Below are positions 1,243-63,143 of a DNA stretch of 64,000 bases, in pieces (position 1 is the stretch's first letter; each line of letters begins with the position of its first letter). Made by a program: the position numbers and the translations under genes. The notes under the pieces were generated by a model. That model was not told the origin of the DNA, did not search any database, and worked only from the letters and a program-made list of their open reading frames with translations. This DNA is from Pelagomonas calceolata (lineage: Eukaryota; Sar; Pelagophyceae; Pelagomonadales; Pelagomonadaceae), in assembly GCA_918797485.1 (NCBI GenBank), contig CAKKNE010000006.1, forward strand, positions 1,240,001 through 1,304,000, in the 5' to 3' direction.

Positions 1243-1266
1243 GCTAGCGGCCTGTAAGACACTAGC
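1243..1266 (+). promoter_or_regulatory. CTAG palindrome element, copy 1
   Basis: Reference copy of a dispersed 24-bp element: left arm GCTAGCGG, then CCTG, then TAAGACACTAGC. The ends GCTAG and CTAGC pair as an inverted repeat. It lies 152 nt upstream of the hydroxyacid oxidase ATG. Confidence 0.6.
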
Positions 1267-1417
1267 AAGATGCTCTGCCTTCAAGCTCTCCGAGTCGCAC
1301 TGATGGCCATGCGACGCGAAAGCCGTGCAAAACCGATGCGCCAACTACGTCTCATCATTCATTGATCGCTGGGTTCAGTTGCTGCGGTTGCACTGCACAG
1401 CAGCACTGTGTTGCGCC

Positions 1418-2572
1418 ATGCTGCTCCGTCGCGTCGTGACACGCACAGCGTCGCATCGATCACTCGCAACTTTGGACGCGGTGCACAACGTCGACGACTT
1501 CCAGCGGCTAGCGAAAGATGTGCTCGAGCGGCCGCTCTACGAGTACCTCGCGTCCGGCTCCGGCGACGAGGTCACGCTGCGGGAGAACCGCGCGGCCTTT
1601 GGCCGTTACGCGCTGCGGCCGCGCGCGCTGCGGCCGGTCGACGCGCTCTCGACGACCTGCGAGCTCTTCGGCAACGAGCTCGCGCTGCCCGTCTTCGCAT
1701 CGCCCGCGGGCGTGCATTCGCTCGTCGACGACGAGGGTGAGTGCGCCACCGCGCGCGCGTGCGGCCGCGCCGGCGTGCTCTTTGGACTCAGCCAGCACGC
1801 GACTGTCTGCATCGAGGACGTCGCGGCAGCGGCGCCGGGCGCGCATCGCTGGTTCCAGAGCTATTTGTTGAAGGACCGCGCCGCGACGTTGGATTTGGTG
1901 CGGCGCGCCGTCGCCGCGGGGTATCGCGGGGTCTTCCTCACCGTCGACTCCGTGCGCTTCGGCTTCCGCGAGGTGGACGCGAGGAATAACTTCTGCGCGT
2001 TGCCGCCGCCGCTGACGCTCGCGAACTACGTCGCGACGCCGCCAGGGATTGGCGCGGCGGCCTGGGAGGCGCGCGAGCATCGCGCGTGGGACCAGAACTC
2101 CGAGGCGCTGTTCGACACCGCGGCCTCCTGGGACGCAGTTTCTTGGCTCCGCGAGGAGCTCGACCCGTCGATACCCTTAGTTGTCAAGGGCGTCATGACT
2201 GGCGAGGACGCCGCGCTCGCCGTGGCCCACGGCGCCGACGGCGTCTACGTGAGCACGCATGGCGGCCGCCAGCTCGACGAGACGCTCGGCGCGCTGGACG
2301 CGCTCCCGGAGGTCGCCGCGGCCGTACCGCCCGGCACGCCTGTGCTTCTGGACTCGGGCGTGCGCCGCGGCACGGACGTCGTGAAGGCCCTCGCTCTGGG
2401 CGCGACGGCGGTCGGCGTCGGCAAACCGCTCTTCTTTTCGCTCGCCGTCGGCGGCGAGCGAGGCGTCGACAAGTTGTTCGAGATCCTCGCGGAGGAAACA
2501 CGCGTCGCGATGGCCTTGACGGGCTGCGCGTCGCTCGCCGACATATCGGCCGATGTTGTTTGTGCGAGATAA
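1418..2572 (+). CDS. FMN-dependent (S)-2-hydroxyacid oxidase, glycolate oxidase type
   Basis: Oxidises glycolate or lactate-type 2-hydroxyacids with FMN. The whole TIM-barrel family is visible: SPAGVHSL, the FMN-contacting QSYLLKDR, TVDSVRFGFRE, LVVKGVMTGEDA (FMN lysine), the active-site His/Arg in STHGGRQLDE, and LLDSGVRRGTDVVKALALGA. The usual SNHG of the active site reads STHG here. The ATG at 1418 is preferred over an upstream GTG because it begins an Arg-rich presequence (MLLRRVVTRTASHRS), suggesting mitochondrial import. In heterokonts such enzymes take part in photorespiratory glycolate or lactate oxidation; the exact substrate cannot be told from sequence. Confidence 0.9.
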   Translation: MLLRRVVTRTASHRSLATLDAVHNVDDFQRLAKDVLERPLYEYLASGSGDEVTLRENRAAFGRYALRPRALRPVDALSTTCELFGNELALPVFASPAGVHSLVDDEGECATARACGRAGVLFGLSQHATVCIEDVAAAAPGAHRWFQSYLLKDRAATLDLVRRAVAAGYRGVFLTVDSVRFGFREVDARNNFCALPPPLTLANYVATPPGIGAAAWEAREHRAWDQNSEALFDTAASWDAVSWLREELDPSIPLVVKGVMTGEDAALAVAHGADGVYVSTHGGRQLDETLGALDALPEVAAAVPPGTPVLLDSGVRRGTDVVKALALGATAVGVGKPLFFSLAVGGERGVDKLFEILAEETRVAMALTGCASLADISADVVCAR

Positions 2573-2582
2573 CAATAACAAA

Positions 2583-4701: not shown

Positions 4702-4723
4702 GCTAGTGTCTTAGTCCGCTAGC
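4702..4723 (-). promoter_or_regulatory. CTAG palindrome element, copy 2
   Basis: 22-bp variant read on the minus strand (GCTAGCGGACTAAGACACTA plus GC). It sits in the middle of the 349-nt gap between the divergent ankyrin gene (165 nt from its ATG) and the glycosyltransferase gene (163 nt). Nothing else is seen in that gap. Confidence 0.6.
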
Positions 4724-5874: not shown

Positions 5875-5898
5875 GCTAGCGGCCTGTAAGACACTAGC
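5875..5898 (+). promoter_or_regulatory. CTAG palindrome element, copy 3
   Basis: Identical over 24 bp to copy 1. It lies 248 nt upstream of the PARP ATG. The surrounding 368-nt gap also holds a short GATC run (5824-5838) but no gene. Confidence 0.6.
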
Positions 5899-6145: not shown

Positions 6146-8749
6146 ATGAGCCATCTCGACCAGATCGCACGCGCCGGCGGCGGCGGCGACGGCGGCCCGC
6201 CACAAGCGAAGATCGGTCCCGCCCCGACCGGTCGCGCGAAATGCTCGAAGTGCGCCGCAAATATTGAGAAGGGAACGCTGCGCGCGACGACCTTCAGCTC
6301 GAGCGCGTTCCACGACGGCTACGACGCGTCCCATTACCACGCGCTCTGTGCACCAGCATCGGCCCGCGGTAGCTTCGACCCGAAGGCTACCTTGTTGCTA
6401 CCGTGGCGCGACCAGCTCACTTTCTCTTCCCACGAGTCCCAGAAGAATGACCTCCGCTCCAACGCGCGAGCGCAAGCGGCGAGCGACCTCTTCTGCCGCA
6501 CGCGTACCGCCCTCGCGAACGACTGCAGACCCAAGGACGTGAAGCAGCTCGTAGAGGAGAACGGCTACTCGCTCCACTGCGGCCCGAAGCCTATTCCACT
6601 CGAGATTCTCGTCGAGATCGCCGCCGACGGCCTCTGCTTCGGACGGCTACCGAAATGTGCCGTGTGCGGCGGTCGAGCGCTCCGACACGCCGGGGCCGAG
6701 CAGGGCTCCCACTCGATAACGTGGTGCACGGGGTGGGCGTCCGCGTCGACGCCCTGCGCCTTCGTCACGAGCGAACCGCCGGCGCGAGAGGCCTGCTGGA
6801 CTGGCTCTGCAGGCTTGCGCAAGAATACGAAGCCGCTCCGGGCTCTCGCTGCATTATTATCGGAGGCTGACGCGCGGGCGCGGCGCGAGGCGCCGGAGCC
6901 CGAAGCTCGGGCGTCAAAGAAGCCCCGGACGGCGCCGCCGCCGCCGCCACCGCTACCAGCGGTCTCGCCGCGCCTGCGGCCCGTACCGACGGACTCGCGG
7001 CTGCTCGTCGTCGATCCCATGGCGCTGCAGGAAGCTGGGTGCAACGCGGGCGCGCGCGACGCTGCTATCGTTCTCACGCATAACGGATGCACGGCCATGA
7101 ACGTGCAGCTGACCTACGTCGACGCCGCCTCGGAGACGAACAGCTTCTACCGCCTCCAGTGCTTCCAGTTCGAGCGGGGTGGATTTGGCATTTTTACGAG
7201 ATGGGGCCGCGTCGGCGAGGACGACGGTCTGCGCAATTACATGGCCGGGGCAAGCTCGGCGCAGAACAAATGTATGCTGCATTTCCACGATGACCTGGAA
7301 TCGGCGACTGAGGAGTTCGCCAAGGTCTTCAAGCGGCACACGCGCCAGGATTGGGCGGCGTATGCTGCGGCGCGGGAGTTTACGCACCAGCCGGGCTGTT
7401 ATGATATTGTGCGCCACGCGGACGCCGAATTGCTGGCGGACGGCGAGGCGGCGGCACCCGGGCGGCCGGCGCTGACGGACGCACCGCTACCTGTAGATCT
7501 CGACGGTCTCGGCGTCAAGGCGCTCAAGGGTTTCTGCGCGGAACGCGGCGTCGACGTCTCGAGGTGCCTCGAGAAGGGCGACATCGTCGACGCGCTGCGG
7601 GCGTCGGCGCCGGCCGTCGCCGCGCCGGCGGCCGAGACGGCTCTCGCGGCGCCGGCGCTCCCGCTGCCCGAGAGCGTCGCGCAGTTCGTCGAGCTCATCT
7701 TTTCCAAGAAGCGCATGGAGGACGAGCTCTCGCGGCGAAACGTCGACACGAGCAAGTTCCCGCTGGGCGAGATCTCGCCGGCGTGTATCCGGGCGGCGTA
7801 CGCCGCGCTGTCCGCGGCATCCGCGGCGCTCGACCGGCCCGCCTCGGCAGCAACCGACGACGTCCAGCGCGCCCGAGACGCCCAGGCTATTCAGACGGCG
7901 ACGAACGACTTCCTGCGGGCGATACCGCATCAAGTTCCCCGCGGCGGCATGGCGGCGCTGCGCCTCGATAATATTGAAGTCATACGCCAGAAGACGGACC
8001 TCGTCTCAACCTTGGAGCAGATCCTCAAGCGTCTGCAGCTGGACCGCGCGGCCCCGAAACAAGCTATTTCCGAAGCGCCCGGCGACGTCTTGAGGAGACA
8101 GTACGCCTCGCTCAAGTGCGACCTGACACCTGTGCCGCGGGACTCCGCGGCCTACGCGGCCATCGCGGGCTACCTGCGTCGGGGCTGGGCCGAGTGTACG
8201 CTGGAGGCTATCTTCGAGGCCACGCTCGCGGGCCAAACAGAAGCTTTCGAGCCGCACCGGAAGTCGAACGTACATTTGTTGTGGCATGGAAGCTCTCTGT
8301 CGAATTGGGCGGGCATATTGAGTGGAGGTTTGCGGATAGCCCCTCCCGAGGCGCCGGTGAACGGCTACAACTTCGACAAAGGGTTGTATTTCGCCGACGT
8401 GTGCGCGAAATCAGCTCAATATTGCCGCGTCCACTCGGGCGCCGCCGCGGTGCTCTGCCTTGCTGAGGTCGCGGTTGGCGATCCGCTCCTGAAGCGCGCC
8501 CCGGACCACAACTCCAACAACGCGAGACGTCTCTCGGGCAAGGATAGCGTCGTGGCCATGGGTCTAAGGGAGCCGGACCCGTCGGCGGGCTACGAGCGCC
8601 TCGGCTCGGCGAGGCTGCCGCTCGGTCGAGTGACCGATTACGCGCCGCCCGAGGACGGGCCCCAGCGCTACATGGGCCACAACGAGTACATCGTCTACGA
8701 CGCGTCGCGCCACCGCATCAAGTACGTCGTCCAGTGCCGCGCCGCTTGA
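6146..8749 (+). CDS. PARP1-like poly(ADP-ribose) polymerase
   Basis: An 867-residue DNA-damage-type PARP that uses NAD+ to build poly(ADP-ribose). Domains in order: one PARP zinc finger (about 30-72; CSKC ... HYHALC), PADR1/zinc-3 (about 130-215; CAVC ... WC ... C), a Pro-rich linker, WGR (about 315-420; FGIFTRWGRVGEDDG), a SAP-like helix pair (about 455-490; VDLDGLGVKALKGFCAERGV), the helical regulatory domain, and the ADP-ribosyltransferase fold. The H-Y-E triad is present (LLWHGSS, KGLYFADVC, HNEYIVYD), so polymerase activity is expected. Differences from animal PARP1: one N-terminal finger instead of two, no BRCT domain, and the SAP motif placed between WGR and the catalytic part. Confidence 0.93.
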   Translation: MSHLDQIARAGGGGDGGPPQAKIGPAPTGRAKCSKCAANIEKGTLRATTFSSSAFHDGYDASHYHALCAPASARGSFDPKATLLLPWRDQLTFSSHESQKNDLRSNARAQAASDLFCRTRTALANDCRPKDVKQLVEENGYSLHCGPKPIPLEILVEIAADGLCFGRLPKCAVCGGRALRHAGAEQGSHSITWCTGWASASTPCAFVTSEPPAREACWTGSAGLRKNTKPLRALAALLSEADARARREAPEPEARASKKPRTAPPPPPPLPAVSPRLRPVPTDSRLLVVDPMALQEAGCNAGARDAAIVLTHNGCTAMNVQLTYVDAASETNSFYRLQCFQFERGGFGIFTRWGRVGEDDGLRNYMAGASSAQNKCMLHFHDDLESATEEFAKVFKRHTRQDWAAYAAAREFTHQPGCYDIVRHADAELLADGEAAAPGRPALTDAPLPVDLDGLGVKALKGFCAERGVDVSRCLEKGDIVDALRASAPAVAAPAAETALAAPALPLPESVAQFVELIFSKKRMEDELSRRNVDTSKFPLGEISPACIRAAYAALSAASAALDRPASAATDDVQRARDAQAIQTATNDFLRAIPHQVPRGGMAALRLDNIEVIRQKTDLVSTLEQILKRLQLDRAAPKQAISEAPGDVLRRQYASLKCDLTPVPRDSAAYAAIAGYLRRGWAECTLEAIFEATLAGQTEAFEPHRKSNVHLLWHGSSLSNWAGILSGGLRIAPPEAPVNGYNFDKGLYFADVCAKSAQYCRVHSGAAAVLCLAEVAVGDPLLKRAPDHNSNNARRLSGKDSVVAMGLREPDPSAGYERLGSARLPLGRVTDYAPPEDGPQRYMGHNEYIVYDASRHRIKYVVQCRAA

Positions 8750-10043: not shown

Positions 10044-10067
10044 CCTAGCGTCCGTATAGGCACTAGC
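10044..10067 (+). promoter_or_regulatory. CTAG palindrome element, degenerate copy
   Basis: Reads CCTAGCGTCC, then GTATAGGCACTAGC; the right arm and spacing are kept and the core is changed. It lies between divergent genes, 70 nt before the MYND-TPR start codon used here. Confidence 0.4.
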
Positions 10068-20665: not shown

Positions 20666-20689
20666 GCTAGCGGCCTGTAAGACACTAGC
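20666..20689 (+). promoter_or_regulatory. CTAG palindrome element, copy 4
   Basis: 24 bp identical to copy 1, centred between divergent genes: 171 nt from the dioxygenase ATG and 176 nt from the TPR ATG. Nothing else is seen in this 369-nt gap. Confidence 0.62.
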
Positions 20690-21591: not shown

Positions 21592-23199
21592 TTACTTAGT
21601 AGGAATAGCCCTCGCCGGGCGGCTTGGGCCGGAGGGAAGCGGCACGGCGAAACGGCTGCCGGGTTTGACGCCGCGAGGGACGATCACCGTCATCTCCTGG
21701 CCCGTGGTCGGGGCGCGGACGCGCAAGTGACTTCCCGGTCCGGCCCCGTGCGGACAGGTCACGAGAAACGCCGACGGCGGCGGCGGCGGCGGCGGCGCGG
21801 TGGCGCGCGGCACCTGCCCGCACCGCTCGTCGCGCAGGTGCCGGAACAGGGCGTTCTTGCTCCGAAATATGGCTCCACAGTTGCGACAGCTATGCTTCTG
21901 GGGCGGCGGCGGCGGCGCCGTCGGGACGGGCGGCGGCGGCGGCGCCGAGGGTACCGGCTTCGGGAGCGCCGTCGGCGGCGCCGCCCCGGGCGTCGTCTTG
22001 CGCTTTGCGAAGCGCGCGCTTCCCACGAAGCAGAACGAGACGGCGAGGAGGACGCATACGCTGCAGACCAGGCAGGTGACGACGGCCAGGACCATCCCGA
22101 TGCCACTCGGGTTGTGTTCGTCCCACAGTTCGTCCTGCAACGCGTTGAGCCTGTCTTCCCACGACGTCGGCGGTGCTGTCGGCGCGTGCGAGATCGACGG
22201 CGCGGCGGTCGTCGGGGCCGCCGTGGGCGCGGGCGAGGTCGTCGGCGCGAGCGTCGTTGGCGAGGTCGTCGGCGGCGGCGGCGGGCAATCGTCGAGGTCG
22301 TCCACTTGCGTGACGCCGCAATCCGTCGACGCGCACGGGGTGCCGCCGAACGCTCTGTCCAGGTCGACGCCGTCGTCCACGCACCAGCCGAGGTCCTGGT
22401 CGAAGGCCGGGGCGCTGCCGAACATTGACCTCATACTCGTGACGCTGTCGACCTGCCATCCGCCGATGTCCTGGTTAAAGGCCGAGGCTTCGGCGAACAT
22501 CGTGTCCATGCGCGTGACGCTCTGGACCGCCCAAGCACCGATGTCTCGGTTAAAGGCCTTGGTCCGATAGAACATGCTATTCATCGTCTTCACGCCCGAG
22601 GTGTCCCACGCGCCGATGTCCTCGTTGAAGGACGCCGCGGCCGAGTCGCAGTCACTGCACCAACAATTTGAACAAGAGCAGTAAGAATAGCCGCAAAACA
22701 AATACGACATGTCCGTCACGGCCGACGTCTCCCACGTCGAGATGTGGCCGTACGCCGCCTCGGCGGCGGCCGCGTCCGCGAGCCACGCGGCGACTGCCGT
22801 TCTGATCCTGCTGTCGGTCATGAAGTTTTTCATGGTAGGCTGCGGCGTCGGGCTTGGCGTCGGTGCTTCCGTCGGGCGCGGCGTTGGTGGTGGCGTAGGG
22901 GGTAGGGTCCCGCAGTACTTCCTGTAGATGTCGAAGTTCATAACACCCCCTATATGATCGCAGTTGTTCAGGCCGAGATCGGTGCCGCACGTGCCGCCGC
23001 CATTGCAGAGGTCGCCGCAGAACGCAATGTCGCAATCAAGAAAGTTAGAATATGACCAGTAATGGCTTTCGGGGCACTCGTCGGCCGCAATGGGCACAAG
23101 CGTACCACACGCATCGGCCGTCCGGCGCGCCGCGCGGAGCGAGGGCGCGCCGGCGGCCGCTCCCAGCAGCGCGACGGCGACCCGCGGGCCCCATGCCAT
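21592..23199 (-). CDS. DUF285 (BspA-like) surface protein with TM helix and C2H2 finger
   Basis: About 535 residues. The ATG at 23199 gives a signal peptide (MAWGPRVAVALLGAAAGAPS); an upstream GTG is ignored. Residues 30-95 are Cys-rich. Residues about 120-290 carry DUF285 repeats (FNEDIGAWDTSGVKTMNSMF; FNRDIGAWAVQSVTRMDTMF; FNQDIGGWQVDSVTSMRSMF). After a Thr/Pro stalk comes one TM helix (GMVLAVVTCLVCSVCVLLAV), then a Pro-rich tail with a single C2H2-like finger (CRNCGAIFRSKNALFRHLR) and a basic C-terminus. It is a type I surface protein; DUF285 repeats are thought to serve adhesion. A zinc finger on the predicted cytosolic side is unusual. Confidence 0.8.
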   Translation of the reverse strand: MAWGPRVAVALLGAAAGAPSLRAARRTADACGTLVPIAADECPESHYWSYSNFLDCDIAFCGDLCNGGGTCGTDLGLNNCDHIGGVMNFDIYRKYCGTLPPTPPPTPRPTEAPTPSPTPQPTMKNFMTDSRIRTAVAAWLADAAAAEAAYGHISTWETSAVTDMSYLFCGYSYCSCSNCWCSDCDSAAASFNEDIGAWDTSGVKTMNSMFYRTKAFNRDIGAWAVQSVTRMDTMFAEASAFNQDIGGWQVDSVTSMRSMFGSAPAFDQDLGWCVDDGVDLDRAFGGTPCASTDCGVTQVDDLDDCPPPPPTTSPTTLAPTTSPAPTAAPTTAAPSISHAPTAPPTSWEDRLNALQDELWDEHNPSGIGMVLAVVTCLVCSVCVLLAVSFCFVGSARFAKRKTTPGAAPPTALPKPVPSAPPPPPVPTAPPPPPQKHSCRNCGAIFRSKNALFRHLRDERCGQVPRATAPPPPPPPSAFLVTCPHGAGPGSHLRVRAPTTGQEMTVIVPRGVKPGSRFAVPLPSGPSRPARAIPTK

Positions 23200-28986: not shown

Positions 28987-31516
28987 TTAGTAGGAGAACT
29001 GCCGCGCGTCGCCAGCTGATTTCTTGCCGTACGGGTTCGCCGCCGAGAAGGCGTGGCCCGACTGGCCCTTGCGCCGGTCGCCCTTCTTCGGGTTGCGCCG
29101 CGTCTTCTTGTCTCCCCTATGACTCAGGTTCAGGTCGACGCGCGGCGGCACGGCAAACCCGAAGCTCTCCGAGACGGCCTGGAGATCTAATGAATGGACG
29201 TCAAAAATGTCCTTGTGCGCGTGCGACGCGTAGGCCAGCAGGTACGACCGGTAGGCGTCCCGCGCGGCGCGATGCAAATAATAATTCTTCTCCACGAGTT
29301 TGGTAAGTGCCGACTGGATGTTCGTGACCTTGCTCATGTCGAACTCGTACTCGTGGAGGGCCACGCGCGCGTCGCGCAGCCACCGCAAGAACCCGAGCTC
29401 CGCCGGCGCCAAGAATAGTAACGCTCTCCCAGTCCCCGTCTCGCCGCGCGCCGTCCGGCCGACTCTGTGGACGTACTCGCGCGGGTCATCTGGCGGGTCG
29501 AACTGCACGATCCAATTGACCTCCGGAATATCTAAGCCCCGCGCGGCGACGTCCGTGCACAGCAGCACGCCCGACGTCGCCCGGCAGAACTCGAAGAACG
29601 TCGACGTGCGCTTCTGCTGCTTCTGGCGGCCGTGGATGTCGAGGACCTGTGTGCGTTTTTTTTTGTGGTGTTTTTCTCGTCGTGTGGCGTTGTCTCGCTG
29701 TGTGGCTTCGTTGTGTGTGGCTTTGTTGTGGCCTCACCATCGCGTCGATGGCGTACCGGTCAGCGTTGGGCTCGCTCGTCCTATCCGCCGTGCTCCCGGC
29801 CGTCGTCTGCCCTCTCTACGCTGTCGCCGCGTCTCTCGCGCCCCCACGCCATCGCCGCGGCGCTCTCGACGCGTGTCTGCTCTCGCGCCTCGGCCGCAGC
29901 CCGCGCGCGCGCCTCGGCCTCCGAGGCCGCGCGGTCGCGCTTGGCTTCGTGACGTCATCGCCGCGACGGCATCACCGCGACGGCATCGCCGTCGACGCGT
30001 CCCGTACGCCGTCGACGCGATGCGGCGCATGCTCTCGTACGCCGTCGCCGTGTCTCACAGTATCAAACGGGACGCCGCTTAGAAACCGGCACGTCAACAT
30101 AATTCAGCAGGTCCGAGTAGTACTTGACCGCGTTGCACGACGAAAAAAACACCATCACCTTTTCTTTTTTGCGGTGTCTTTTTAGAAATGTAAATAAGAG
30201 CCGGAACCGATCCTTCGGCGCGACGACGACGTAGCCCTGCTCGAGACCCGCGACGGTCGCGTGCTGCTCCGAGTCGTGGACTCCTACATATACTGGATCT
30301 GTTTTGATCGCGAGTCTCGCCAAGTCTTCGACCTTTCTCGTTTGTGTTGCTGAAAATAAAGCCGTCTGCCGCTGCGACGGTAGGGCCTTCACAATACCCC
30401 GCAGATCTTCCTCGAAGCCCTGCTCGAGTAAGCGGTCCGCTTCATCAATTACGAACATCAGCAAATTCCTATATATAAACCCGCTCGTGTTCTGGAGGTG
30501 GTCCAACAGTCTACCGGGCGTCGCCACCAACAAACAAACACCCTTCACGAGTCGTTCCGCCTCGCCTCTCCTGTTCGCGCCGCCTATAACTAACCCGTGC
30601 GTGTGCGACGCGCCCGAGCCTCCCACGAGCTCGCGCAGCACGTTGTAGATCTGCAGCGACAGCTCGCGCGTCGGCGAGATGACGAGGCCGCCTAATCCTC
30701 TATTCTGCTGGAAGCGGGCTTTCGTGAGGAGGTCGACCTGCGCGCGTTTTGTGGTGTTTTTCGCGTCGTGGTCTCGCGTTGTCTCGTCGCGGCCTCGCGG
30801 CCCCGCGTCCGCCGATTGCTCTCTCGCCGCGTGGCGTCCTCGGCCGCTCTCTCCACTTCGCGTCGATGGCGTACCCGCCCACGCCGTCGCCGCGACCGTC
30901 ACAAGTAAGAGGACGCCGCTCCAATACCATCGGCACGAGGAACGCGAGCGTCTTGCCCGAGCCCGTTTTGGCATTACCTAACAAGTCGCGTCCTTCTAAC
31001 AACGGCGGGATCGCGCGTTCCTGGATCTTCGTCATGGTTCCAAAACCCATCTTCTTGATGCTTTCCTGCGTGCCCTCCGCCAGCGGTAAGGCGTCGAAGG
31101 TCAGCGTGCCGAACATGCTTGCGGCGTTCGCGTCGGACTTCGGCGGCGGCGCCTGCGCCTCCTCGGCGGGCGCCGCGTCCGCCGCGTCGGCTTCGTCCGC
31201 CGCGGGCTCGTCCGCGGCCGGTGCGGCCTGCGCGCGGCGGAGGAGTAAAGGCGCGTCCGCCTCCACGCTATCAACGACGGGTCCTCTCATCCGCTTCCAC
31301 GCCATCGACGCGACGAAGGCCTGTATGACGCCGGCGCGGCACGGCTTCGTCCGCGGCCCGCTTCTTCGCCTTCTTCGCCTTCTTCTTCTTGGCCGCCCGG
31401 CTCTGGCCGCCGGCCTCGGGCTCGGCGGCGCCCTCGAGCTTGCGCTTCAGGAGCTTGGCCTCCTTCTTCTTGCGTTTTGCTTCCTTGCGCGCGGCTTTGG
31501 CTGCTGCGGCGTCCAT
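28987..31516 (-). CDS. HAS1: HAS1/DDX18-type DEAD-box RNA helicase, four exons
   Basis: Exons 31343..31516, 30928..31293, 30087..30737 and 28987..29646; all are whole codons and give 616 aa. The N-terminus is Lys-rich (nucleolar type). The helicase core begins [20 protein letters not shown], as in DDX18. Motifs: [13 protein letters not shown], the DEAD box in [24 protein letters not shown] and HRVGRTARG. Splicing rebuilds [14 protein letters not shown] and YVDVP|VLDIHG, both matching the family where the unspliced frame does not. The C-terminus ends in a basic Gly/Ser tail. Role: 60S and 40S pre-ribosome maturation with snoRNA release. The first intron (49 nt) is the least certain. Confidence 0.9.
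29647..30086 (-). mobile_element. Class 2 introner intron (440 nt), third HAS1 intron
   Basis: Starts GTTTCTAAGCGGCGTCCCG and ends AAAAACACCACAAAA, then CGCACACAG. The interior holds several copies of GCGTCGACGGCGTAC-like and CGCCATCGACGCGATG segments, so it looks like several units nested or tandemly expanded. The 3' tail is nearly the same as that of the neighbouring intron at 30.7-30.9 kb. Confidence 0.8.
30738..30927 (-). mobile_element. Class 2 introner intron (190 nt), second HAS1 intron
   Basis: Starts GTATTGGAGCGGCGTCC, contains GTACGCCATCGACGCGAAG, and ends GAAAAACACCACAAAACGC then GCGCAG. Removing it joins FLVPM to VDLLTKARF, matching the DDX18 family. Confidence 0.82.
31294..31342 (-). 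other. Probable short intron, first HAS1 intron
   Basis: The frame must change between the Lys-rich N-terminus and the helicase exon. GTGCCGCGCCGGCGTCATAC resembles the class 2 start, and GTCGCGTCGATGGCGTGG the introner core. The acceptor chosen (GGAAG) is atypical; a nearby AG is possible. Confidence 0.45.
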
Positions 31517-33549: not shown

Positions 33550-34168
33550 TTAACCACCATCTTCATCCCCCTCCACCATCCCCTTCACGATCTCATGCAA
33601 ATCAAACACCGACGCCTCCGTCACGGCGGGCTCGGAGTCGACAACGTCCAGCACCTGCTCGTGCATCGCGAGGATGCCCTGGAGCTCGTCCTCGCCGTAG
33701 AAGCCCGCGCTCGTCGCCGGCTTGGCTGGGGCTTCGGCCGCTTCAGACAGCGCCGCGAGCCGCTCCCGCAGCTCCGACGCCGCCGTCCAGACGCGCGCGG
33801 CCGCGTCGACGTCCGCGACGCCGTCGAACTGGCGCCGCCGGCGTTCCTCCGACGTCATCGCGTTGGCGCCGAAGACCTGCGTGGCGTTCAAGTAAGACCT
33901 CTCAATATGCGTCAGGACGCCGCTCGCATACCGCGGGCTCGCCGTCGATCTCGACGGACACGCTCGGCCCCGCGCACTCGCCGTCGCAGGCGCCGCTCGT
34001 CACTTCCGCGTTCTCCGAGCTTTTGGCGAGCCCGTCCAGGGCCTGCTGCGCGTCGAACTTGGCGGTGGCGCACGCGCCGCACGTCCGGACGACGAGCCGC
34101 AGCGGCGCGAGCGCGCGGCTTTGTAGAACGAGTGCGCAGAGCCAGCAGCTGGTCCTTGTGAAGCGCAT
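33550..34168 (-). CDS. Small Cys-bearing protein, possibly organellar, two exons
   Basis: Exons 33932..34168 and 33550..33876 give 187 aa in frame; the join reads DGEPA|VFGANAM. The N-terminus (MRFTRTSCWLCALVLQSRAL) is a signal-like hydrophobic stretch; APLRLVV and a CGAC pair follow, then CDGEC. The two Cys pairs hint at a thioredoxin-like ferredoxin or other metal/redox fold, but this is not established. The second half is helical and acidic and ends EGDEDGG. The 5' leader contains another introner core fragment (CGCCATCGACGCGATG) abutting the ATG. Confidence 0.6.
33877..33931 (-). mobile_element. Minimal class 2 introner intron (55 nt)
   Basis: Starts GTATGCGAGCGGCGTCCTG and ends GAACGCCACGCAG. 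GTATGCGA and the downstream exon start GTCTTCGG match at 5 of 8 positions, a possible decayed target duplication. It is one of the shortest introns in the window. Confidence 0.75.
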
Positions 34169-34357: not shown

Positions 34358-34381
34358 GCTAGCGGCCTGTAAGACACTAGC
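34358..34381 (+). promoter_or_regulatory. CTAG palindrome element, copy 5
   Basis: Identical to copy 1. It is 190 nt upstream of the Cys-protein ATG (minus strand) and just past the stop of the next minus-strand gene. Confidence 0.6.
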
Positions 34382-34409: not shown

Positions 34410-35384
34410 TCACACAACTTCGCGACCGGAGGCAGCGGCATGCGCGACGAGCTGCTTGCGCCGCGCCTCGTAGAGGACCTCCGCCACGAGGATCGCGCGC
34501 GCCTGCCGCTCGCGGCGGGGACCGTCGGTCGGGAGCGCGGCCCACACGATGTCGACGCCGAAGATCGCCGGCAGGACGCGGTCGATCTCACTTCGCGACA
34601 GGAGGGGAACGCCGTCGGCGTCGCGCGACGGCCGCTCCAGCACGAGGCGCCGGTAGCTCTCGAAGTTGTCGTAGCTTTCGCAGTAGCTGTCTCGTTCGGC
34701 CCTGGCCCACGAGACACGGGTCACCGCCAACGGGACCCGAAGGGCGGCCACGAGGTAGCGCACGAAGCCGGCGTCGACAGCGTCGGCGGCGTCGCGACGC
34801 GCCTGCTCAATAAAATTGTGTCCGCGCCACAGGGCCTGGTCGATCGCCGCGAGCTCCGCGTCCACGTCCTCCAGGGGCCCCCAGCAAAACACGCGCGGCA
34901 GCGCCGGGCGCTCGGGCATGCGCTTCACACGATAGGATTCCAGTTGCCGGTCCAAAACATCCCACAGGTAGAGCCAGTTCTTCACGCCGAGCTCCTCGCG
35001 CTTCTTCTTGAGCTCCGCGCGCTTCCAGGTATTAAATTCGTAGTTCTCTATCGCGCGGTCGCGGCCGAACCTGGCTTCCAACGCGTTCGTCGCTTTAACG
35101 AGGCCGTCTGCTAACACTTCATACACGTTTCCCAAACCGTTGATACCTTGTATGAACTCCTCGATTTGATCCGGCGACCATGCTAGTACACATTCAAGAT
35201 GTGTGCTTAGGAGTTGATGCCAACTGTCGACGCCGCAGTCCTCGCGCAAAAGCCTGACGATGCCCGCGAGGGGGTCCGCTTGATCTATGTGGAGCCGCTC
35301 GCGCACCGCTGTGATATCACCATATTTGAGAGCGTACGCTGCTTCGATCGCAGCGTACATTGCTTCGAGTGCATCGACGTTCAT
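34410..35384 (-). CDS. Unknown protein, tandem pair member A
   Basis: A 324-residue helical protein with no family recognised. The ATG at 35384 is used; in-frame TTG further up is not needed, and the paralogue has its ATG in the same place. Features shared with member B: DQADPLAGIV near the N-terminus, a Trp-rich AWSPD motif, RMPERPALPRVFCWGPLEDV in the centre, AIDQALWRGHN and LLSRSEIDRVLPAIFGVDIV. No signal peptide or TM helix. Confidence 0.7.
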   Translation of the reverse strand: MNVDALEAMYAAIEAAYALKYGDITAVRERLHIDQADPLAGIVRLLREDCGVDSWHQLLSTHLECVLAWSPDQIEEFIQGINGLGNVYEVLADGLVKATNALEARFGRDRAIENYEFNTWKRAELKKKREELGVKNWLYLWDVLDRQLESYRVKRMPERPALPRVFCWGPLEDVDAELAAIDQALWRGHNFIEQARRDAADAVDAGFVRYLVAALRVPLAVTRVSWARAERDSYCESYDNFESYRRLVLERPSRDADGVPLLSRSEIDRVLPAIFGVDIVWAALPTDGPRRERQARAILVAEVLYEARRKQLVAHAAASGREVV

Positions 35385-35490: not shown

Positions 35491-35514
35491 GCTAGCGGCC
35501 TGTAAGACACTAGC
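35491..35514 (+). promoter_or_regulatory. CTAG palindrome element, copy 6
   Basis: Identical to copy 1; 107 nt upstream of tandem member A. Its flank (GCGAAA, then CCAACACAACACTTACTGG) repeats that of copy 5, so it was carried by the gene duplication. Confidence 0.6.
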
Positions 35515-35544: not shown

Positions 35545-36411
35545 TCACACAACTTCGCGACCGAAGGCAGCGGCATGCGCGACGAGCTGCTTGCGCCGCG
35601 CCTCGTAGAGGGCCTCCGCCACGAGGATCGCGCGCGCCTGCCGCTCGCGGCGCGGGCCGTCGATCGGGAGCGCGGCCCACACGATGTCGACGCCGAAGAT
35701 CGCCGGCAGGACGCGGTCGATCTCGCTCCGCGACAGGAGCGGAACGCCGTCGGCGTCGCGCGACGGCGGCTCCAGCACAAGGCGTCGCGCGAAGCCGTCG
35801 GCGTCGCAGTAGCTGTCTCGTTCGGCCCTGGCCCACAAAGCCGAGGTCACCGCCAACTGGGTCCGACATGCGGCCACGAGGAAGCGCACGAAGCCGGCGT
35901 CGACAGCGTCGGCCGCGTCGCGACGCGCCTGCTTAATCAAATTGTGTCCGCGCCACAGGGCCTGGTCGATCGCCGCGAGCTCCGCGTCCACGTCCTCCAG
36001 GGGCCCCCAGCAAAACACGCGCGGCAGCGCCGGGCGCTCGGGCATGCGCTTCACACAATAGTTGCGCTCCGCGCGGTGCCGGGTATTAAATTCGCAGGCT
36101 TCTTTTGCCCGTCGGGCCCCCAACCTGGCTTCGACTGCGTTCGTCACATTAACGAAGAGGTCCGCTGTCAGTTCACCAGAGTTTGCCACGAAGTCGATAC
36201 CTCGTAGGAACTCCTCGGTTTCATCCGGCGACCATGCTAGTATGTCTTCAAGATGTTCTCTTAGGAGTTGATGCCAGCTGTCGCGGCCGCAGTGCGCGCG
36301 CAGGACCCTGACGATGCCCGCGAGGGGGTCCGCTTGATCAAAGTTGAGCCACTCGAGCACCGCTGTGACATCACCCGCAGCGTACGCTGCTTTGAGTGCA
36401 TCGACGCTCAT
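35545..36411 (-). CDS. Unknown protein, tandem pair member B
   Basis: A 288-residue paralogue of the gene just downstream. The C-terminal two thirds are nearly the same as member A. The middle of the N-terminal half is shorter (the KRAELKKKREELGVKNWLYL part of A is missing). A truncated or differently evolved N-terminal region and similar promoters suggest a recent tandem duplication. Function unknown. Confidence 0.7.
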   Translation of the reverse strand: MSVDALKAAYAAGDVTAVLEWLNFDQADPLAGIVRVLRAHCGRDSWHQLLREHLEDILAWSPDETEEFLRGIDFVANSGELTADLFVNVTNAVEARLGARRAKEACEFNTRHRAERNYCVKRMPERPALPRVFCWGPLEDVDAELAAIDQALWRGHNLIKQARRDAADAVDAGFVRFLVAACRTQLAVTSALWARAERDSYCDADGFARRLVLEPPSRDADGVPLLSRSEIDRVLPAIFGVDIVWAALPIDGPRRERQARAILVAEALYEARRKQLVAHAAAFGREVV

Positions 36412-36513: not shown

Positions 36514-36537
36514 GCTAGCGTCATGTAAGACACTAGG
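36514..36537 (+). promoter_or_regulatory. CTAG palindrome element, copy 7
   Basis: GCTAGCGTCA, then TGTAAGACACTAGG. It lies between divergent genes: 103 nt from the member-B ATG and 196 nt from the lumen-protein ATG. Nothing else in this 321-nt gap. Confidence 0.58.
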
Positions 36538-36732
36538 CATCTAGCCAGGATCCAAGAGTTTGGCCGCGACACGTGACGCAGCCGTAGCGCACCGGTCGGC
36601 ATTGATTCGGGAACGGGCGCGTTCCATCAGTGGATCCGACGAGCGGTAGCTGCGGCGAACGAGCCAGGTCCACAAATAAGTGCTCTCCCAAAGCCAAGAG
36701 AGAGAGCTGCACCAAAAACAGCAGCAGCCACC

Positions 36733-37436
36733 ATGCGCCGCGCGCTCGCAGTCCTAGCGACGGCCGCGGCCCTGGCGCCCGGCGCGAGGCGAGCACCACG
36801 CCTCGCGGCCTCCACGCCACTGAGGCCCTTGGCCGGCGCCGCGCTCGCCGCCGCGCTGTCGCTAGCCCCGCCGGCTAGCGCTCGGCCGCCCTCGCCGAGC
36901 GTCTGGCAGGCGTCCTACGCCGACCAGCTCCACCCCGGCTGCGAGCGGAAAATCAGCATCGAGAAGAACGGCGACCGCGTCATCGCGCACTTCGCCGGTG
37001 CGGGCGCGGCGTCCATCAAACTCAACAACGACGAGGCGTCGCGTCGATGGCGTGCGGTGGCGCCGCGCCGCCAACGCCGCGCCGCCGCGACGGGAACGCA
37101 GACGGCGTCGGTGCGTCGCTCGCGGGGCTGAGGCACGTACTCTCAAACGCCCAACGCCATCGCCGCGCCGCCTCGACACCAAAACCAAACGCAGGCACCG
37201 ACGTCGGCCCCAAGGGCATCGGCGACAAGGTCTTCCTCGCGTGCTCGCCGGACAACGTCGAGAAGTACAAGCTCCGGACCTGGGCCTTCGACGGCGAGAT
37301 CGTCGGCGACCGCATCGACGCGGGCGACGGCGTCCACGCGGGCACGTGGAACGTGAACTTCAAGGGCGCCGAGAACCCGTGGACGGGCATCCGCTGGAAG
37401 GACGGCAACCGGTGGCTCAAGCTCGAGGAGGAGTAA
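36733..37436 (+). CDS. Probable thylakoid-lumen protein, two exons
   Basis: Exons 36733..36997 and 37195..37436 join in frame (168 aa), giving HFAG|TDVGPKGIGDKVFLAC. The N-terminus has a first hydrophobic signal (MRRALAVLATAAALAPGARR), then a second one (LAGAALAAALSLAPPASA) ending in an AxA site, the layout for crossing plastid and thylakoid membranes. The mature part has WQASYADQLHPGCERKISI, GIGDKVFLACSPDNVEKYKL and a Trp-rich end. The family was not named with confidence. The intron is a class 2 introner. Confidence 0.72.
36998..37194 (+). mobile_element. Class 2 introner intron (197 nt)
   Basis: Starts GTGCGGGCGCGGCGTCCATC and ends ACCAAACGCAG. It holds GTCGCGTCGATGGCGTGCGG and CAACGCCATCGCCGCGCCG, a potential stem. 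Confidence 0.75.
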
Positions 37437-42402: not shown

Positions 42403-42425
42403 TCTAGTGTCTTATTGCCGCTAGC
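42403..42425 (-). promoter_or_regulatory. CTAG palindrome element, copy 8
   Basis: Minus-strand form GCTAGCGGCAATAAGACAC, then TAG. It lies between divergent genes, 277 nt from the SMARCC ATG and 166 nt from the plastid-protein ATG. Confidence 0.58.
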
Positions 42426-44037: not shown

Positions 44038-44052
44038 AAGTAAGACACTAGA
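44038..44052 (+). promoter_or_regulatory. Half CTAG palindrome element
   Basis: Only the right half (AAGTAAGACACTAGA) is left, 129 nt upstream of the four-TM protein ATG. Two copies of GAGAGTTTCGTCTGG (near 43959 and 43998) lie between. Confidence 0.4.
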
Positions 44053-47580: not shown

Positions 47581-47603
47581 GCTAGTGTCTTACTGTCGCT
47601 AGC
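47581..47603 (-). promoter_or_regulatory. CTAG palindrome element, copy 9
   Basis: 23-bp minus-strand form (GCTAGCGACAGTAAGACACT, then AGC). It lies between divergent genes, 180 nt from the AAA ATPase ATG and 247 nt from the GT14 ATG. Nothing else is recognised in this 448-nt gap. Confidence 0.6.
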
Positions 47604-49914: not shown

Positions 49915-49938
49915 GCTAGCGGGCTGTAAGGCACTAGC
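49915..49938 (+). promoter_or_regulatory. CTAG palindrome element, copy 10
   Basis: GCTAGCGGGC, then TGTAAGGCACTAGC. It lies in a 528-nt divergent gap, 223 nt from the CC-repeat ATG and 283 nt from the metalloprotease-like ATG. The rest of the gap is AT-richer; a minus-strand ORF there (49934-50269) is too weak to call. Confidence 0.58.
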
Positions 49939-52307: not shown

Positions 52308-52331
52308 GCTAGCGTGCACAAGGCCGCTAGC
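52308..52331 (+). promoter_or_regulatory. CTAG palindrome element, copy 11 (strong arms, changed core)
   Basis: GCTAGCG, then TGCACAAGGC, then CGCTAGC: seven-base arms pair perfectly, while the usual TAAGAC core is gone. It lies in the divergent gap between sirtuin (104 nt) and ETF-beta (210 nt). Confidence 0.5.
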
Positions 52332-53435: not shown

Positions 53436-54581
53436 TTAGGCGGAGCGGGCGCGGAGCACGGCTCGCGCCTCTTGCAGAGACGCCTCAAATCCTCCCGCTA
53501 CGACCGGGTGCGCACCTCCAAGCACGCGCCGCGCGATCCGTTCCGCGTCCTCGAGCGTCGTCACGGCCTCGCGGATGTCGTCGAGTGTGGCGCCGTCGGC
53601 CCTGTAGAGCGCCATCGCGTAGGCCCGCCTCAGCTTGAGCGTGATATCGTGACCATCGCCGAGAACGCGTCGCGCCACGGGCGTCGTTTTGCGCAGCAGT
53701 GCCTTGGCTTCTTCGATGCGCCCTAGGTCAACGAGCAAATTCGCCAAGTTACTGGCTACCGTAAGGGTATCACCGTGTTGTTCGCCATAGAGCTTCGAGA
53801 ACCCGGAATATACATCTCGTCGCATGCGCAGGGACTCGTCGAACCGTTCGACTCTTTGATAAGCTCTCGCAAGATTGCTATACAAAGTGAGCATGGTGTA
53901 TTCTGATGCCCAAAAGGCGCTGCCGCATGCCCCAAGGCGCTGCCGCATGGACAACTCAGCCTCATACACGGACACCGCGTCCTCATGGTGGTCTGCGGAG
54001 GCTAAGCCGTTTGCGAGCACCCCCATCGCCATGCCCCGATCCACGTCAGTCTCCGGCCGCCCCACGTACGTCTTCCAGCACGCCCACCCGAGCGCGCCTC
54101 GCACGACGCCGTGGTAGTCTTGCTCGCACAGACCACACGTGTGCCACCGCTTCCACCGCAAACTCTTCGCTTTCCAGTCCAAATTGTTCTCCTCGGCCTC
54201 CGCGACCAAAATCTTCGCCTGCTCCGCCAAGCACGACACGTGCGCGAAACCCGCCGTCCCGCGGCACGAGCACCCCCGCACGAGGCCCTCCTTCGTTTTC
54301 CAGTGGAGGGCCTGCGTGCAGATGAAGCACGTCTGACCTTTCGTGTCGTCGGCGCATTTCTCGACCGCGACGGCTACGGCCTCCGCGTGCTTCTTATTTG
54401 CGTTGTATTGTTCGGCGCCGCCAGCCTTTTTTATCTTCTTGCAGAGCTTGTCATGGCCGCCCTCTTCCCAGGATTTTTTCTGACATTCGGGCCCACAGTA
54501 GCGTGTGCTGCAGCGGCCGCATTTCTTGCCCAATGATAAGCCGAGCGGGGCAGCGCAGGCGGCGCACTGCGTGAGGATCAT
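53436..54581 (-). CDS. MYND, RING-variant and TPR protein (second full-length copy)
   Basis: A 381-residue paralogue of the 10.1-kb gene with the same start (MILTQCAACA). The MYND finger (CGRCSTRYCGPEC), RING-variant finger (CFIC ... CSCRGTAGFAHVSC ... CGLC) and about five KLC-type TPRs (LYSNLARAYQRVERFDESLR; NLANLLVDLGRIEEAKALLR) are all present. The frame is intact, so it is likely functional. It lies head-to-head with the truncated copy at 56.6 kb, with the hairpin-rich island between them. Confidence 0.85.
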   Translation of the reverse strand: MILTQCAACAAPLGLSLGKKCGRCSTRYCGPECQKKSWEEGGHDKLCKKIKKAGGAEQYNANKKHAEAVAVAVEKCADDTKGQTCFICTQALHWKTKEGLVRGCSCRGTAGFAHVSCLAEQAKILVAEAEENNLDWKAKSLRWKRWHTCGLCEQDYHGVVRGALGWACWKTYVGRPETDVDRGMAMGVLANGLASADHHEDAVSVYEAELSMRQRLGACGSAFWASEYTMLTLYSNLARAYQRVERFDESLRMRRDVYSGFSKLYGEQHGDTLTVASNLANLLVDLGRIEEAKALLRKTTPVARRVLGDGHDITLKLRRAYAMALYRADGATLDDIREAVTTLEDAERIARRVLGGAHPVVAGGFEASLQEARAVLRARSA

Positions 54582-54642: not shown

Positions 54643-54666
54643 GCTAGCGGTGTGTAAGATACTAGC
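54643..54666 (+). promoter_or_regulatory. CTAG palindrome element, copy 12
   Basis: GCTAGCGGTG, then TGTAAGATACTAGC; 62 nt upstream of the MYND-TPR ATG, the closest spacing in the window. Confidence 0.6.
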
Positions 54667-57571: not shown

Positions 57572-58498
57572 CTAGTACCCGCCCCCCGCGTACAACAGCG
57601 TCTTCGCCGGCTGCGCCTTCGGCGCCCGCGCGCGGACCGACGCCGCCGTGTTCACGGCTAGCAGCGCCAGGCGCGCGCGCTTCGCGTCCGCGCCGTCGCC
57701 CTCGGCATCCGTCCGGTCGCAGAGCGCGAGCCACTCCTTCAGGCCCGACCGCATTTCTTCCGAAGACGGTCGCAGCAACGAGCGCGCGGCGCACGCGGAC
57801 TCGAGGCATTCGACGGGCAACGCGTCGATCTCGCTCCGCCGTAAAGCCGCATCTCCGTCGACCAACCGCTCCATGCCCTTGCGCACGTGGCCCCGGTGCA
57901 TCCAGCGCGGCAGCCAGCCGTAGGGCCCATCTAAAGCGCGCGACGCCGCCTTGAGCGCGACTGATGGTAGTTCCTCGCCCTCGGCGTTCATCGCTATGCG
58001 TAAAGCCGCTTTCTTCGACGACGCTCCTAATACACCCTGGAGGCAGTTGACGTGTTCCAAAGAAATGTCGGCCGGGGTCTGCGCCTTCTTCTTGTCGAGG
58101 GCGGCTTTGTCGAAGGCGTCGAGCATCTTTTCCAGAGCTTGTTTCCGTCTTTTTTCCCCGTCGGCGAAGCGTCTGGCGCGCGTCACCGGCGTCTCGTAGG
58201 TCGACGGCAGCATGCCCGGGTAGAAGTACAAGGCTAGCGGCGTGTACAACTTCGCGTACAACGCGAGCCATAAAACAGAAAAGCACTTCCCGATGTCGTT
58301 GTTCGCGTTCTCGAGGCGGTCCCACTCCGGATACAGCAGGTTCACGCCGTCCTTGCGGCGCTTCCGTATCTTGTTCGCGGCCTTCTGCTCATTAACCAAA
58401 GCTTTCGTGCGACTCAGGAAGCCACCAACAGGCTTGGTGACGAAGGCGATCGCGCCGGCGTGCGCCACGAGCGTCAAGAGGAGGGCGAGGCGGGGCAT
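57572..58498 (-). CDS. Plastid-targeted LETM1-like protein
   Basis: A 308-residue protein. The ATG at 58498 begins a signal peptide (MPRLALLLTLVAHAGAIAFV) with an AIAF motif at the cut site, the heterokont plastid-import sign; an upstream ATG would spoil this. Residues about 50-100 match the LETM1 membrane region (GVNLLYPEWDRLENANNDIG, then LALYFYPGMLPSTYETP). Helical ribosome-binding-like segments follow (ISLEHVNCLQGVLGASSKKA; RSGLKEWLALCDRTDAEGD). LETM1 proteins act in K+/Ca2+-H+ exchange and ribosome anchoring; a plastid version is known in plants and algae. The C-terminus is short, without an EF hand. Confidence 0.8.
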   Translation of the reverse strand: MPRLALLLTLVAHAGAIAFVTKPVGGFLSRTKALVNEQKAANKIRKRRKDGVNLLYPEWDRLENANNDIGKCFSVLWLALYAKLYTPLALYFYPGMLPSTYETPVTRARRFADGEKRRKQALEKMLDAFDKAALDKKKAQTPADISLEHVNCLQGVLGASSKKAALRIAMNAEGEELPSVALKAASRALDGPYGWLPRWMHRGHVRKGMERLVDGDAALRRSEIDALPVECLESACAARSLLRPSSEEMRSGLKEWLALCDRTDAEGDGADAKRARLALLAVNTAASVRARAPKAQPAKTLLYAGGGY

Positions 58499-58729: not shown

Positions 58730-58754
58730 GCTAGCGTGCAGTAAGACACACTAG
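58730..58754 (+). promoter_or_regulatory. CTAG palindrome element, copy 13
   Basis: GCTAGCGTGCAG, then TAAGACACACTAG; two extra bases in the right arm. It is 232 nt upstream of the LETM1-like ATG. Confidence 0.55.
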
Positions 58755-58766
58755 AAAAACCGACAG

Positions 58767-58876: not shown

Positions 58877-58877
58877 A

Positions 58878-61280: not shown

Positions 61281-61835
61281 TGCGCTGGTCGGAGCTGTGA
61301 TTGATGTGCTTGGCAGCGCAATACGCAGGTTTCGCACCGCTATTAATGCATTTTGGTGCAGCCAGTGAGAGCGCTCTCTGCACCAGCTGACAGACGCCGA
61401 ACGGCGGCACCGGAACCGTGCCAGCGATGAAAAATACGTGTCTGTGTATAGTGTGCAGCTCTGCAGCGTCCGCTCGTCTTGCGGTGAGCGCCACGCTGTG
61501 CGCGCGGCTGGAAAGTGATTGACACGGGTTTTGCAGCGGACGAAAGGCCGAAGCCAACCATCGGAGGGACTCGCCCGCGCCCGCGAAACGTCTCGGGCAA
61601 CCAACGCACGGGCGCGCGACAAGATTAGCACAACAGATGCGCGCGCCCTGCCTCGTGGCGCTGCACAGCGAGGACGCCGCGGCACAACCGGGAGCGCCCC
61701 ATCGCTCGCCGCACGAAAGGCATCGACCACTACCGTCCCATAGCTATCAAAAAGACGCTGCCCGCGACTCCATCAGGCAGCCCCACCGCAAAACAGTGAG
61801 CAGTCCGTGGAACGCCGCCGTCGCGACCCCAAGCT
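61281..61835. other. Divergent intergenic region
   Basis: 555 nt between the fusion gene and the kelch gene. The frame of the fusion gene stays open far into it, but without signal or family features. No CTAG palindrome or RNA gene is seen. Confidence 0.4.
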
Positions 61836-63050
61836 ATGGCATCGACCTGGACGGTCGCGAGCGCCCAGCCTACCGACGCGCGGGGCGACGAGCACACGCC
61901 GGCGCCGCGGTATGGGCACGGCGCGGCCATCGCCGAGGACATCATGACGATAACGCATGGGTACTACTTTGACCATGAAAGGTGCAAGCCCATGTTCCTG
62001 GACGACACGTGGGAGTACCACACGACGCACAAGAAGTGGCGCTACCGAAGTCTCGGTTCCGTGAGGCCGTGCAAGCGCTTCCACGTGCAATATGCCTGGG
62101 ACGCTTCTCACTTGTACTTGTTCGGCGGGACCGATGGCGGTCTCAGAGTGAACAAGGGCGAGAATTTTATTTTTGGCCCTAGAGCGGAGTTTAATGATTT
62201 GTGGCGCTTGCAACTCAACGAAGAGTCGGCGCGGTGGGAAAAGCTCCACGGCGGCTCGGACGAGACCTACAACGCCGTCGAGGGGCAGGACGTGCCGCGG
62301 AAGGCGCACATGGGCGGCTGCGCCTGCGCCGCCGGCAAAGTGTATACGTTTGGCGGGCTCTGTGGAGATGAGAGTGAAGAGCCGGACGGCCTCGAGGCGC
62401 TGGGCGAATTGTGGGCTTGGAATATTGGGGAAGCCGCCTGGTCGCGCGCGAAAACGACGGGTTCGAAACCGGACGCGCGGTACGGGTGTGGCATGGTTTC
62501 CGATGGGGATGGTTTTTTGCTGACGGGCGGACGAGTGAGGGATAAGGAGGACGAAGATGCCCGGAAATTGTTCGACGACCTCTGGCGGCTAGATTGTACG
62601 ACGATGGCCTGGTCTTTATTACATAGAGACCCGCTCCTCAAGCGCGTCGACGCGGCGGTCTGCCGCGCCGGCAACCACCTCATCCTGTGGGGCGGGAACG
62701 TCGCCGAGCAGCCGATCGCGGCGGAGGTCCCGTGCGACGGCGTTCTGTATGATGACCAATTCAGAGCGTGCGCGCCGCTACCCGTCAGACCGTGCGACGT
62801 GCCTTCGGGCTTGACCGAGGCGCCGCCGTTCGGGCGGCTGCACGCGACGCTGGTCTCGATCCCGGACGGGGCGCGGCGCGTCCTGCTCTTATTCGGGGGC
62901 GAGAGCGTGCACCCGCACATGTACCACGGGTCCGTCTACGAGGCGCGGCTCTTCCTGCCCGGGAGCAGCGAGGACCCGCCGGACCTCGGGGACCTGTCGC
63001 TCGCGCCCGCTCCCGCTCCCGCTCCCGCGCCGGCGCCGGCGCCCGCTTGA
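61836..63050 (+). CDS. Kelch-repeat protein
   Basis: A 404-residue protein with about six kelch blades (RYGHGAAIAEDIMTITHGYY; HLYLFGGTDGG; KVYTFGGLCGD; ARYGCGMVSDGDGFLLTGGR; NHLILWGGN; RRVLLLFGGESVHP), forming a beta-propeller. No F-box, BTB or signal peptide; an unusual (Pro-Ala)n tail ends the protein. It is a protein-binding scaffold of unknown partner. Blade-to-blade WRL / WAW tryptophans (NDLWRLQLNEES; GELWAWNIGEAAWS; DDLWRLDCTTMAWS) are well kept, so the fold should be sound. Confidence 0.85.
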   Translation: MASTWTVASAQPTDARGDEHTPAPRYGHGAAIAEDIMTITHGYYFDHERCKPMFLDDTWEYHTTHKKWRYRSLGSVRPCKRFHVQYAWDASHLYLFGGTDGGLRVNKGENFIFGPRAEFNDLWRLQLNEESARWEKLHGGSDETYNAVEGQDVPRKAHMGGCACAAGKVYTFGGLCGDESEEPDGLEALGELWAWNIGEAAWSRAKTTGSKPDARYGCGMVSDGDGFLLTGGRVRDKEDEDARKLFDDLWRLDCTTMAWSLLHRDPLLKRVDAAVCRAGNHLILWGGNVAEQPIAAEVPCDGVLYDDQFRACAPLPVRPCDVPSGLTEAPPFGRLHATLVSIPDGARRVLLLFGGESVHPHMYHGSVYEARLFLPGSSEDPPDLGDLSLAPAPAPAPAPAPAPA

Positions 63051-63120
63051 GAAAGTACCTTTGTAAATTCGCATTTCAGACACCTATCTACCGTGCGCTG
63101 CGGAAAACACGCGCTTGCTT

Positions 63121-63143
63121 GCTAGCGACTGTAAGACACTAGC
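63121..63143 (+). promoter_or_regulatory. CTAG palindrome element, copy 14
   Basis: GCTAGCGACTGTAAGACACT, then AGC; 87 nt upstream of the ATG at 63230. Confidence 0.6.

Follow-up and report, generated by a model that had tools for sequence, protein, structure and literature searches.

Is the short sequence that recurs ahead of many genes in one stretch of the Pelagomonas calceolata genome a working part of their promoters, or a repeat that has come to rest between them? The stretch is a window of 64,000 bp (C6:1240001-1304000) in a genome that, as given in the main text of its description, measures 32.4 Mb, with six nuclear contigs, a 90-kb plastid, a 39-kb mitochondrial contig, and 63.6% G+C (PMC9481584). 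A preliminary description had listed 16 places in the window with a CTAG palindrome of about 24 bp upstream of start codons. We found that a repeated 24-bp element before genes is real and very common, and its placement points to a promoter-proximal site that is probably bound by a protein. Both arms of the element are present at 15 of the 16 places, and the remaining one, at 44038, is a right half-site, just as had been described.

The element consists of a left arm, GCTAGCG, a short hinge, and a right arm, TAAGACACTAGC, which together give the consensus GCTAGCGGCCTGTAAGACACTAGC, often followed by AA. Across 55 copies with up to 3 mismatches (two of them from L042 and L043, contigs of unproven origin), the 7 + 12 arm positions carry ~33 bits against a uniform background, a figure that is biased upward because the copies were picked by likeness. 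The hinge of these copies is usually 3 to 5 bp long (5 bp in 29/55, 4 bp in 11, 3 bp in 8, 1 bp in 3, 2 bp in 2, and 6 bp in 2), and the hinge GCCTG is common to 14/55. A fixed arm pattern with a 12-base spacer and 3 mismatches gave 39 matches, relative to 54 expected in shuffles, and hence no enrichment, because this pattern modeled the element badly; two arms with a variable hinge were used instead. The term palindrome proved only partly apt: the CTAG blocks of the two arms are inverted, but arm pair 6 is C/A in 58/64 copies, the right arm exceeds the left by 5 bp, and no co-variation was found between the arms, a change in either one occurring without an answering change in the other.

The assembly comprises 32,445,274 bases in 8 contigs, and the abundance of the element was counted genome-wide. 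With both arms exact and a hinge of 0 to 12 bp, 719 + 693 = 1412 copies were found on the two strands, relative to none for a reversed-pattern control, while the 24-mer with up to 3 mismatches occurred 935 times on one strand and at least 1000 times on the other (control, 0). The main form, AAGACACTAGCAAGC, has 666 exact copies genome-wide, and a linked subclass, AAGACACTAGGCATC, has 69 (control, 0 in each case); the subclass runs on as CTAGGCATC at 36514-36547 of the window and at 2198-2230 of L041, a contig considered below. For finer counts we used a 324-kb sample made up of the window and 20 kb of surrounding sequence, a 200-kb block of C1, and four 10-kb stretches. When at most 3 mismatches were allowed, this sample held 49 copies, compared with 0, 1, 0, 0, 1, and 2 in six simulations under an order-2 Markov model, although the density of 49 per 324 kb is biased upward because three of the 10-kb stretches (L034, L035, and L037) had been selected for a listed copy. 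The 200-kb block of C1 (C1:2000001-2200000), which was chosen as a round number, contained 25 copies, a count that extrapolates to roughly 4,000 in the whole genome. Copies with exactly 4 mismatches numbered 10 in the sample, relative to 2 to 6 in the simulations, and single copies of this grade are therefore uncertain. When 8-, 10-, and 12-mers in upstream gaps were counted unprompted, the element ranked first.

The placement of the element relative to genes was examined with genes called by a self-trained codon-usage script, such that all gene starts are predicted, and with a tandem array of 6 copies (L038) omitted from every position count. In agreement with the preliminary description, which had placed the element in intergenic DNA ahead of start codons and had named its absence from coding sequence as a check, 48/49 copies lay outside called coding sequence (CDS), which makes up 68% of the sample DNA. 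At least one gene starts away from the copy in 46 of these 48 cases. A copy was present in 23/59 divergent gaps, as had been claimed for many copies, in 20/73 tandem gaps, and in only 2/58 convergent gaps. The distance to the nearest start (44 copies) had a median of 180 bp, and 36/44 copies lay at 90 to 260 bp, relative to 48% under uniform placement in the same gaps; none of 5,000 draws reached 36/44. No copy lay within 60 bp of a start, relative to 8.6 expected, and distances to the ATG spanned about 70 to 300 bp. Both orientations occur, again as described, at 34 flanks in the same orientation as the gene and 31 in the opposite one (P = 0.80, 65 flanks of up to 450 bp, longer flanks being excluded); four of the same-orientation flanks come from L041, and the P. 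calceolata genome alone gives 30:31. The estimate that about half of the genes lack the element was too low, since only 67 of 196 called genes bear a copy with up to 3 mismatches, and 75 of 196 bear one with up to 4.

The flanks between motif and gene also carry compositional trends. Moving from the motif toward the gene, the frequency of T on the sense strand was 0.20 to 0.22 in the first 100 bp and 0.09 to 0.12 beyond 180 bp, and ATG was scarcer than CAT all along (20 versus 35 in the first 40 bp and 9 versus 43 beyond 120 bp). These trends may hint that most transcripts start between the motif and the ATG, perhaps 80 to 120 bp from the motif, but the evidence is weak because a trend that simply followed distance to the ATG would look the same and the gene caller disfavors upstream in-frame ATGs.

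A scan of the GTDB species genomes for the element returned six records (L039 to L044), of which homology backs only L039 and L041; in a collection of that size chance could yield several single matches, and the single exact-arm matches of L040, L042, L043, and L044 may be of this kind. Two IMG/VR scans for the element returned 0 matches. L041 is a contig of a marine bin labeled Spirochaeta, eight stretches of which match C6:2236569-2246679 in colinear order at 83 to 94% identity, and it is, judged by these alignments, a stray contig of a close relative. A copy stands ~130 to 240 bp upstream of 5/5 genes called on it, four copies having up to 3 mismatches and one, a weak copy, having 4, and all are oriented with their gene. 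Homology with the P. calceolata genome has an edge at two of the five (2198 and 4290), and the other three lie in unaligned stretches. A short query around 4290 returned the same homology edge, one around 5352 returned only a 30-base match on C3, and one around 2198 matched 20 other copies, the syntenic place not being among them. The bin from which L041 comes had matches on four further contigs and one in the reversed control; for the genomes of this further-contig scan, the reversed control gave single matches (1 in G001, 3 in G002, and 1 in G003). A piece of L039 is 95.6% identical to C1 over 1004 bases, and its element is conserved at 24/24 bases; indels of 3 and 2 bases lie immediately upstream and ~15 bp downstream of it, respectively. 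As a separate observation, both are cases of algal DNA in contigs of bacterial metagenome-assembled genomes, throughout the aligned part of L041 and from about 2043 to 3615 of L039. Another feature of L041, at 299-455, is a dispersed ~157-bp intergenic repeat that matches the P. calceolata genome in dozens of places (about 80 to 88%) and ends near a CTAG motif in the three copies examined.

Taking these data together, we consider it probable that the element is the promoter-proximal site of one putative, widely used, sequence-specific DNA-binding factor that would be active in either orientation. Such a factor would contact both arms on double-stranded DNA and would sit perhaps about 80 to 120 bp ahead of the transcription start site, where, like general regulatory factors, it may open or phase chromatin and permit transcription to one or both sides. 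The element itself stands before one gene or before both genes of a divergent pair. The sites of general factors occur in either orientation and are enriched just upstream of many unrelated genes, and the element resembles them in both respects (34 same, 31 opposite). If this reading is correct, then the element would be neither a TATA- or initiator-type start-site marker nor an RNA element. The interpretation offered in the preliminary description is partly supported: the placement that it proposed stands up to the controls, and a pure insulator fits less well than a promoter site.

Several observations weigh against a single-factor promoter site. About two thirds of the called genes lack the element, and ~33 bits is long for the site of one factor. 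CpG and GC autocorrelation, used as a stand-in for nucleosomes, revealed no clear periodicity. The GCCTG hinge in 14/55 copies and the linked subclass could mean descent by copying. In the close relative, all 4 stronger copies are oriented the same way as their gene, and since only 2/5 copies there sit at a homology edge while 3 are unaligned, the position of the element may turn over. A bolder proposal, in which we place little confidence, is a master promoter code peculiar to pelagophytes. About a third of all promoters would be marked, via a flexible-hinge, two-arm site, by one factor, which might be a domesticated transposase still able to recognize its old terminal repeats; the sites would have been copied into open promoter DNA and would later have become required.

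Copying without function, in which the element would be a mobile or copied micro-element (the remains of transposon ends, or a repeat favoring open promoter DNA) whose copies do nothing themselves, seems to us unlikely. The 24-bp unit does have approximate inverted GCTAGYG ends, many copies share a hinge, the linked subclass has 69 members, and the similarity among the neighboring duplicates at 34358, 35491, and 36514 shifts at the motif or next to it. In contrast, the flanks of copies are unrelated, and across 12 boundary offsets, flanking direct repeats of 5 or 8 bp were found in 0/55 copies, of 6 bp in one, and of 4 bp in up to two; outside the arms, repeats of 2 to 3 bp were about as frequent as chance would give. 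The element also strongly avoids convergent gaps and the 60 bp nearest to a start. The outcome that the preliminary description had set against its own proposal, namely, a miniature transposon that duplicates its target and has no preferred position, was not observed.

A chromatin boundary or insulator that merely tends toward large intergenic gaps would account for the frequency of the element in divergent gaps (23/59) and for its neutral orientation, but it would not be expected to be scarce in convergent gaps (2/58) or to keep a set distance to the downstream start in tandem gaps, and we regard this explanation as decidedly improbable. There is very little to recommend a core promoter or start-site element, which would fit the nearness to genes and the high copy number, because such elements are directional whereas the two orientations are equal here (34:31), because ATG distances spread over about 70 to 300 bp, and because the T and ATG trends put the start, weakly, between the element and the ATG. 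A hairpin in the 5' leader RNA, for which 5 to 7 arm bases could pair, is scarcely credible given the neutral orientation, the C/A at pair 6 in 58/64 copies, and the lack of compensatory arm changes.

Within the window, the two-arm copies comprise 8 that are exact, 4 with 1 mismatch, and 3 with 4 mismatches (Table 1). None of the 15 falls in predicted CDS, and each precedes at least one predicted gene; 8 lie between divergent genes, and the nearest start is 73 to 259 bp away save at 34358 (511 bp). The remark that the arms are kept at 52308 despite a change elsewhere was borne out for the outer arms.

Table 1. Positions of the element in the window, with strand, match to the two arms, and predicted genes nearby.
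Feature	Positions	Strand	Match and neighboring genes
Copy	1243..1266	+	Arms exact, hinge 5; 163 bp before gene 1418-2572 (+)
Copy	4702..4723	-	Arms exact, hinge 3; divergent genes at 175 and 174 bp
Copy	5875..5898	+	Arms exact, hinge 5; 259 bp before PARP gene 6146-8749 (+)
Weak copy	10044..10067	+	4 mismatches, hinge 5; divergent genes at 214 and 81 bp
Copy	20666..20689	+	Arms exact, hinge 5; divergent genes at 182 and 187 bp
Copy	34358..34381	+	Arms exact, hinge 5; 511 bp before weak 102-aa prediction 33550-33858 (-)
Copy	35491..35514	+	Arms exact, hinge 5; 118 bp before gene 34410-35384 (-)
CTAGGCATC-subclass copy	36514..36537	+	1 mismatch, hinge 5; 114 bp before 35545-36411 (-), 521 bp before 37047-37436 (+)
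Copy	42403..42425	-	1 mismatch, hinge 4; divergent genes at 287 and 177 bp
Right half-site TAAGACACTAGA	44041..44052	+	Best two-arm score 4 mismatches; not upstream of called gene
Copy	47581..47603	-	Arms exact, hinge 4; divergent genes at 190 and 258 bp
Copy	49915..49938	+	1 mismatch, hinge 5; divergent genes at 234 and 294 bp
Weak copy	52308..52331	+	4 mismatches, outer arms retained; divergent genes at 115 (SIR2) and 221 bp
Copy	54643..54666	+	1 mismatch, hinge 5; 73 bp before gene 53436-54581 (-)
Copy	58730..58754	+	2-bp right-arm insertion, scored 4 mismatches; 243 bp before LETM1-like gene 57572-58498 (-)
Copy	63121..63143	+	Arms exact, hinge 4; 98 bp before gene 63230-64774 (+), which leaves the window

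No common function or regulon was visible among the bearers in the window when Pfam matches were compared with those of non-bearers, a comparison that left out 4 short predictions. Bearers matched FMN_dh, PARP, AAA/WHD, SIR2, LETM1, ankyrin, VASt, Core-2/I-branching, and TPR/MYND, and non-bearers matched coatomer epsilon, two DEAD helicases, Kelch, ETF, and sulfotransferase; a match at E ≤ 0.001 was obtained for 11/22 scanned bearers and 13/17 scanned non-bearers (10/17 at the curated cutoff). Between 34358 and 36537, similarity among the neighboring duplicated stretches starts or stops at or beside the element, perhaps through recombination at the motif. The window also holds a DUF285 protein gene at 21592-23199 (-); in the pelagophyte virus AaV, DUF285 genes have a conserved upstream motif, according to an excerpt of PMC5917014.

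The weaker form said to precede the tRNA-like genes turned out to lie within them, at 31862-31886 inside a tRNA-like gene at 31853-31981 and at 33017-33041 inside its copy at 33008-33136, and these sequences are probably not the same element. Each member of the pair carries two insertions, one in the D arm and one 3' of the anticodon. ARAGORN reported no tRNA in the uncut gene, with introns allowed or not; with both insertions excised at trial places, 4410 trials gave 2166 lines that named a tRNA, and the ten commonest groups were all tRNA-Thr(CGT). Going by these trials, the pair appears to be a duplicated, disrupted tRNA-Thr(CGT)-like gene, similar to the disrupted tRNA genes that are the subject of a review (PMC3978253), as far as its excerpted part describes them. 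Reading by eye also showed that a word resembling GCTAG(C/T)(C/T)AGTCCTCAGC recurs several times behind the tRNA-like genes, at 32117-33460.

The tandem array omitted above (L038 785-4544, C4:2614785-2618544) contains six exact copies of the element spaced 736 to 752 bp apart, with no gene called; it is perhaps an RNA gene array. Rfam gave no match at the gathering cutoff on the window, L038, or L020, and none at E up to 1 on 31000-34000 of the window, L038, or L041:1-700. The second-strongest word in upstream gaps, ACGCCATCGA, often in the form ACGCCATCGACGCGA, has 92 copies in the 324-kb sample (e.g., at 105058-105133 of the C1 block) and is a dispersed repeat, because 38/92 copies lie inside called CDS. 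Palindrome-like AACGGTTTAC / GTAAACGGTTTAC stand beside two element copies, downstream of C1 block positions 61011 and 67522.

The words "motif," "promoter," and "palindrom" have 0 occurrences in the main text of the genome paper (PMC9481584). No description of the element was found in the open-license literature, as judged mostly from titles and abstract openings, and the only matches to the arms as literal text appeared unrelated by title. Oomycete core promoter elements are reportedly directional and mark the start site, whereas our element lies farther upstream and is orientation neutral. Those elements come from a genome-wide analysis that supplies stramenopile promoter sequences, as stated in an excerpt of PMC3599244. 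The early promoter motif of AaV is given in the excerpted text of PMC5917014 as an A/T-rich octamer, AAAAATGA, which differs from the G+C-rich, two-arm element described here.

With ~33 bits and a place upstream of roughly one third of the called genes, the element offers a direct handle for isolating its binder, allows promoters to be annotated from sequence alone, and forms a basis for expression tools. Its density and neutral orientation also make it well suited to testing whether, beyond yeasts and animals, many divergent promoters are set up by a single general factor. By analogy, the element most likely works like the known sites of general factors. The yeast Abf1, Reb1, and Rap1 sites are promoter proximal, occur in either orientation at genes of mixed function, and serve divergent promoters, and those of Abf1 are bipartite, with a spacer. 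Compared by description rather than by sequence, our element is likewise promoter proximal and orientation neutral and stands before many genes of mixed function, but the yeast sites are shorter and less constant. The proximal sites of animal NRF1 and ZNF143 are palindromic or long and occur in many, often bidirectional, promoters; the element differs from them in sequence and in its hinge of 1 to 6 bp.

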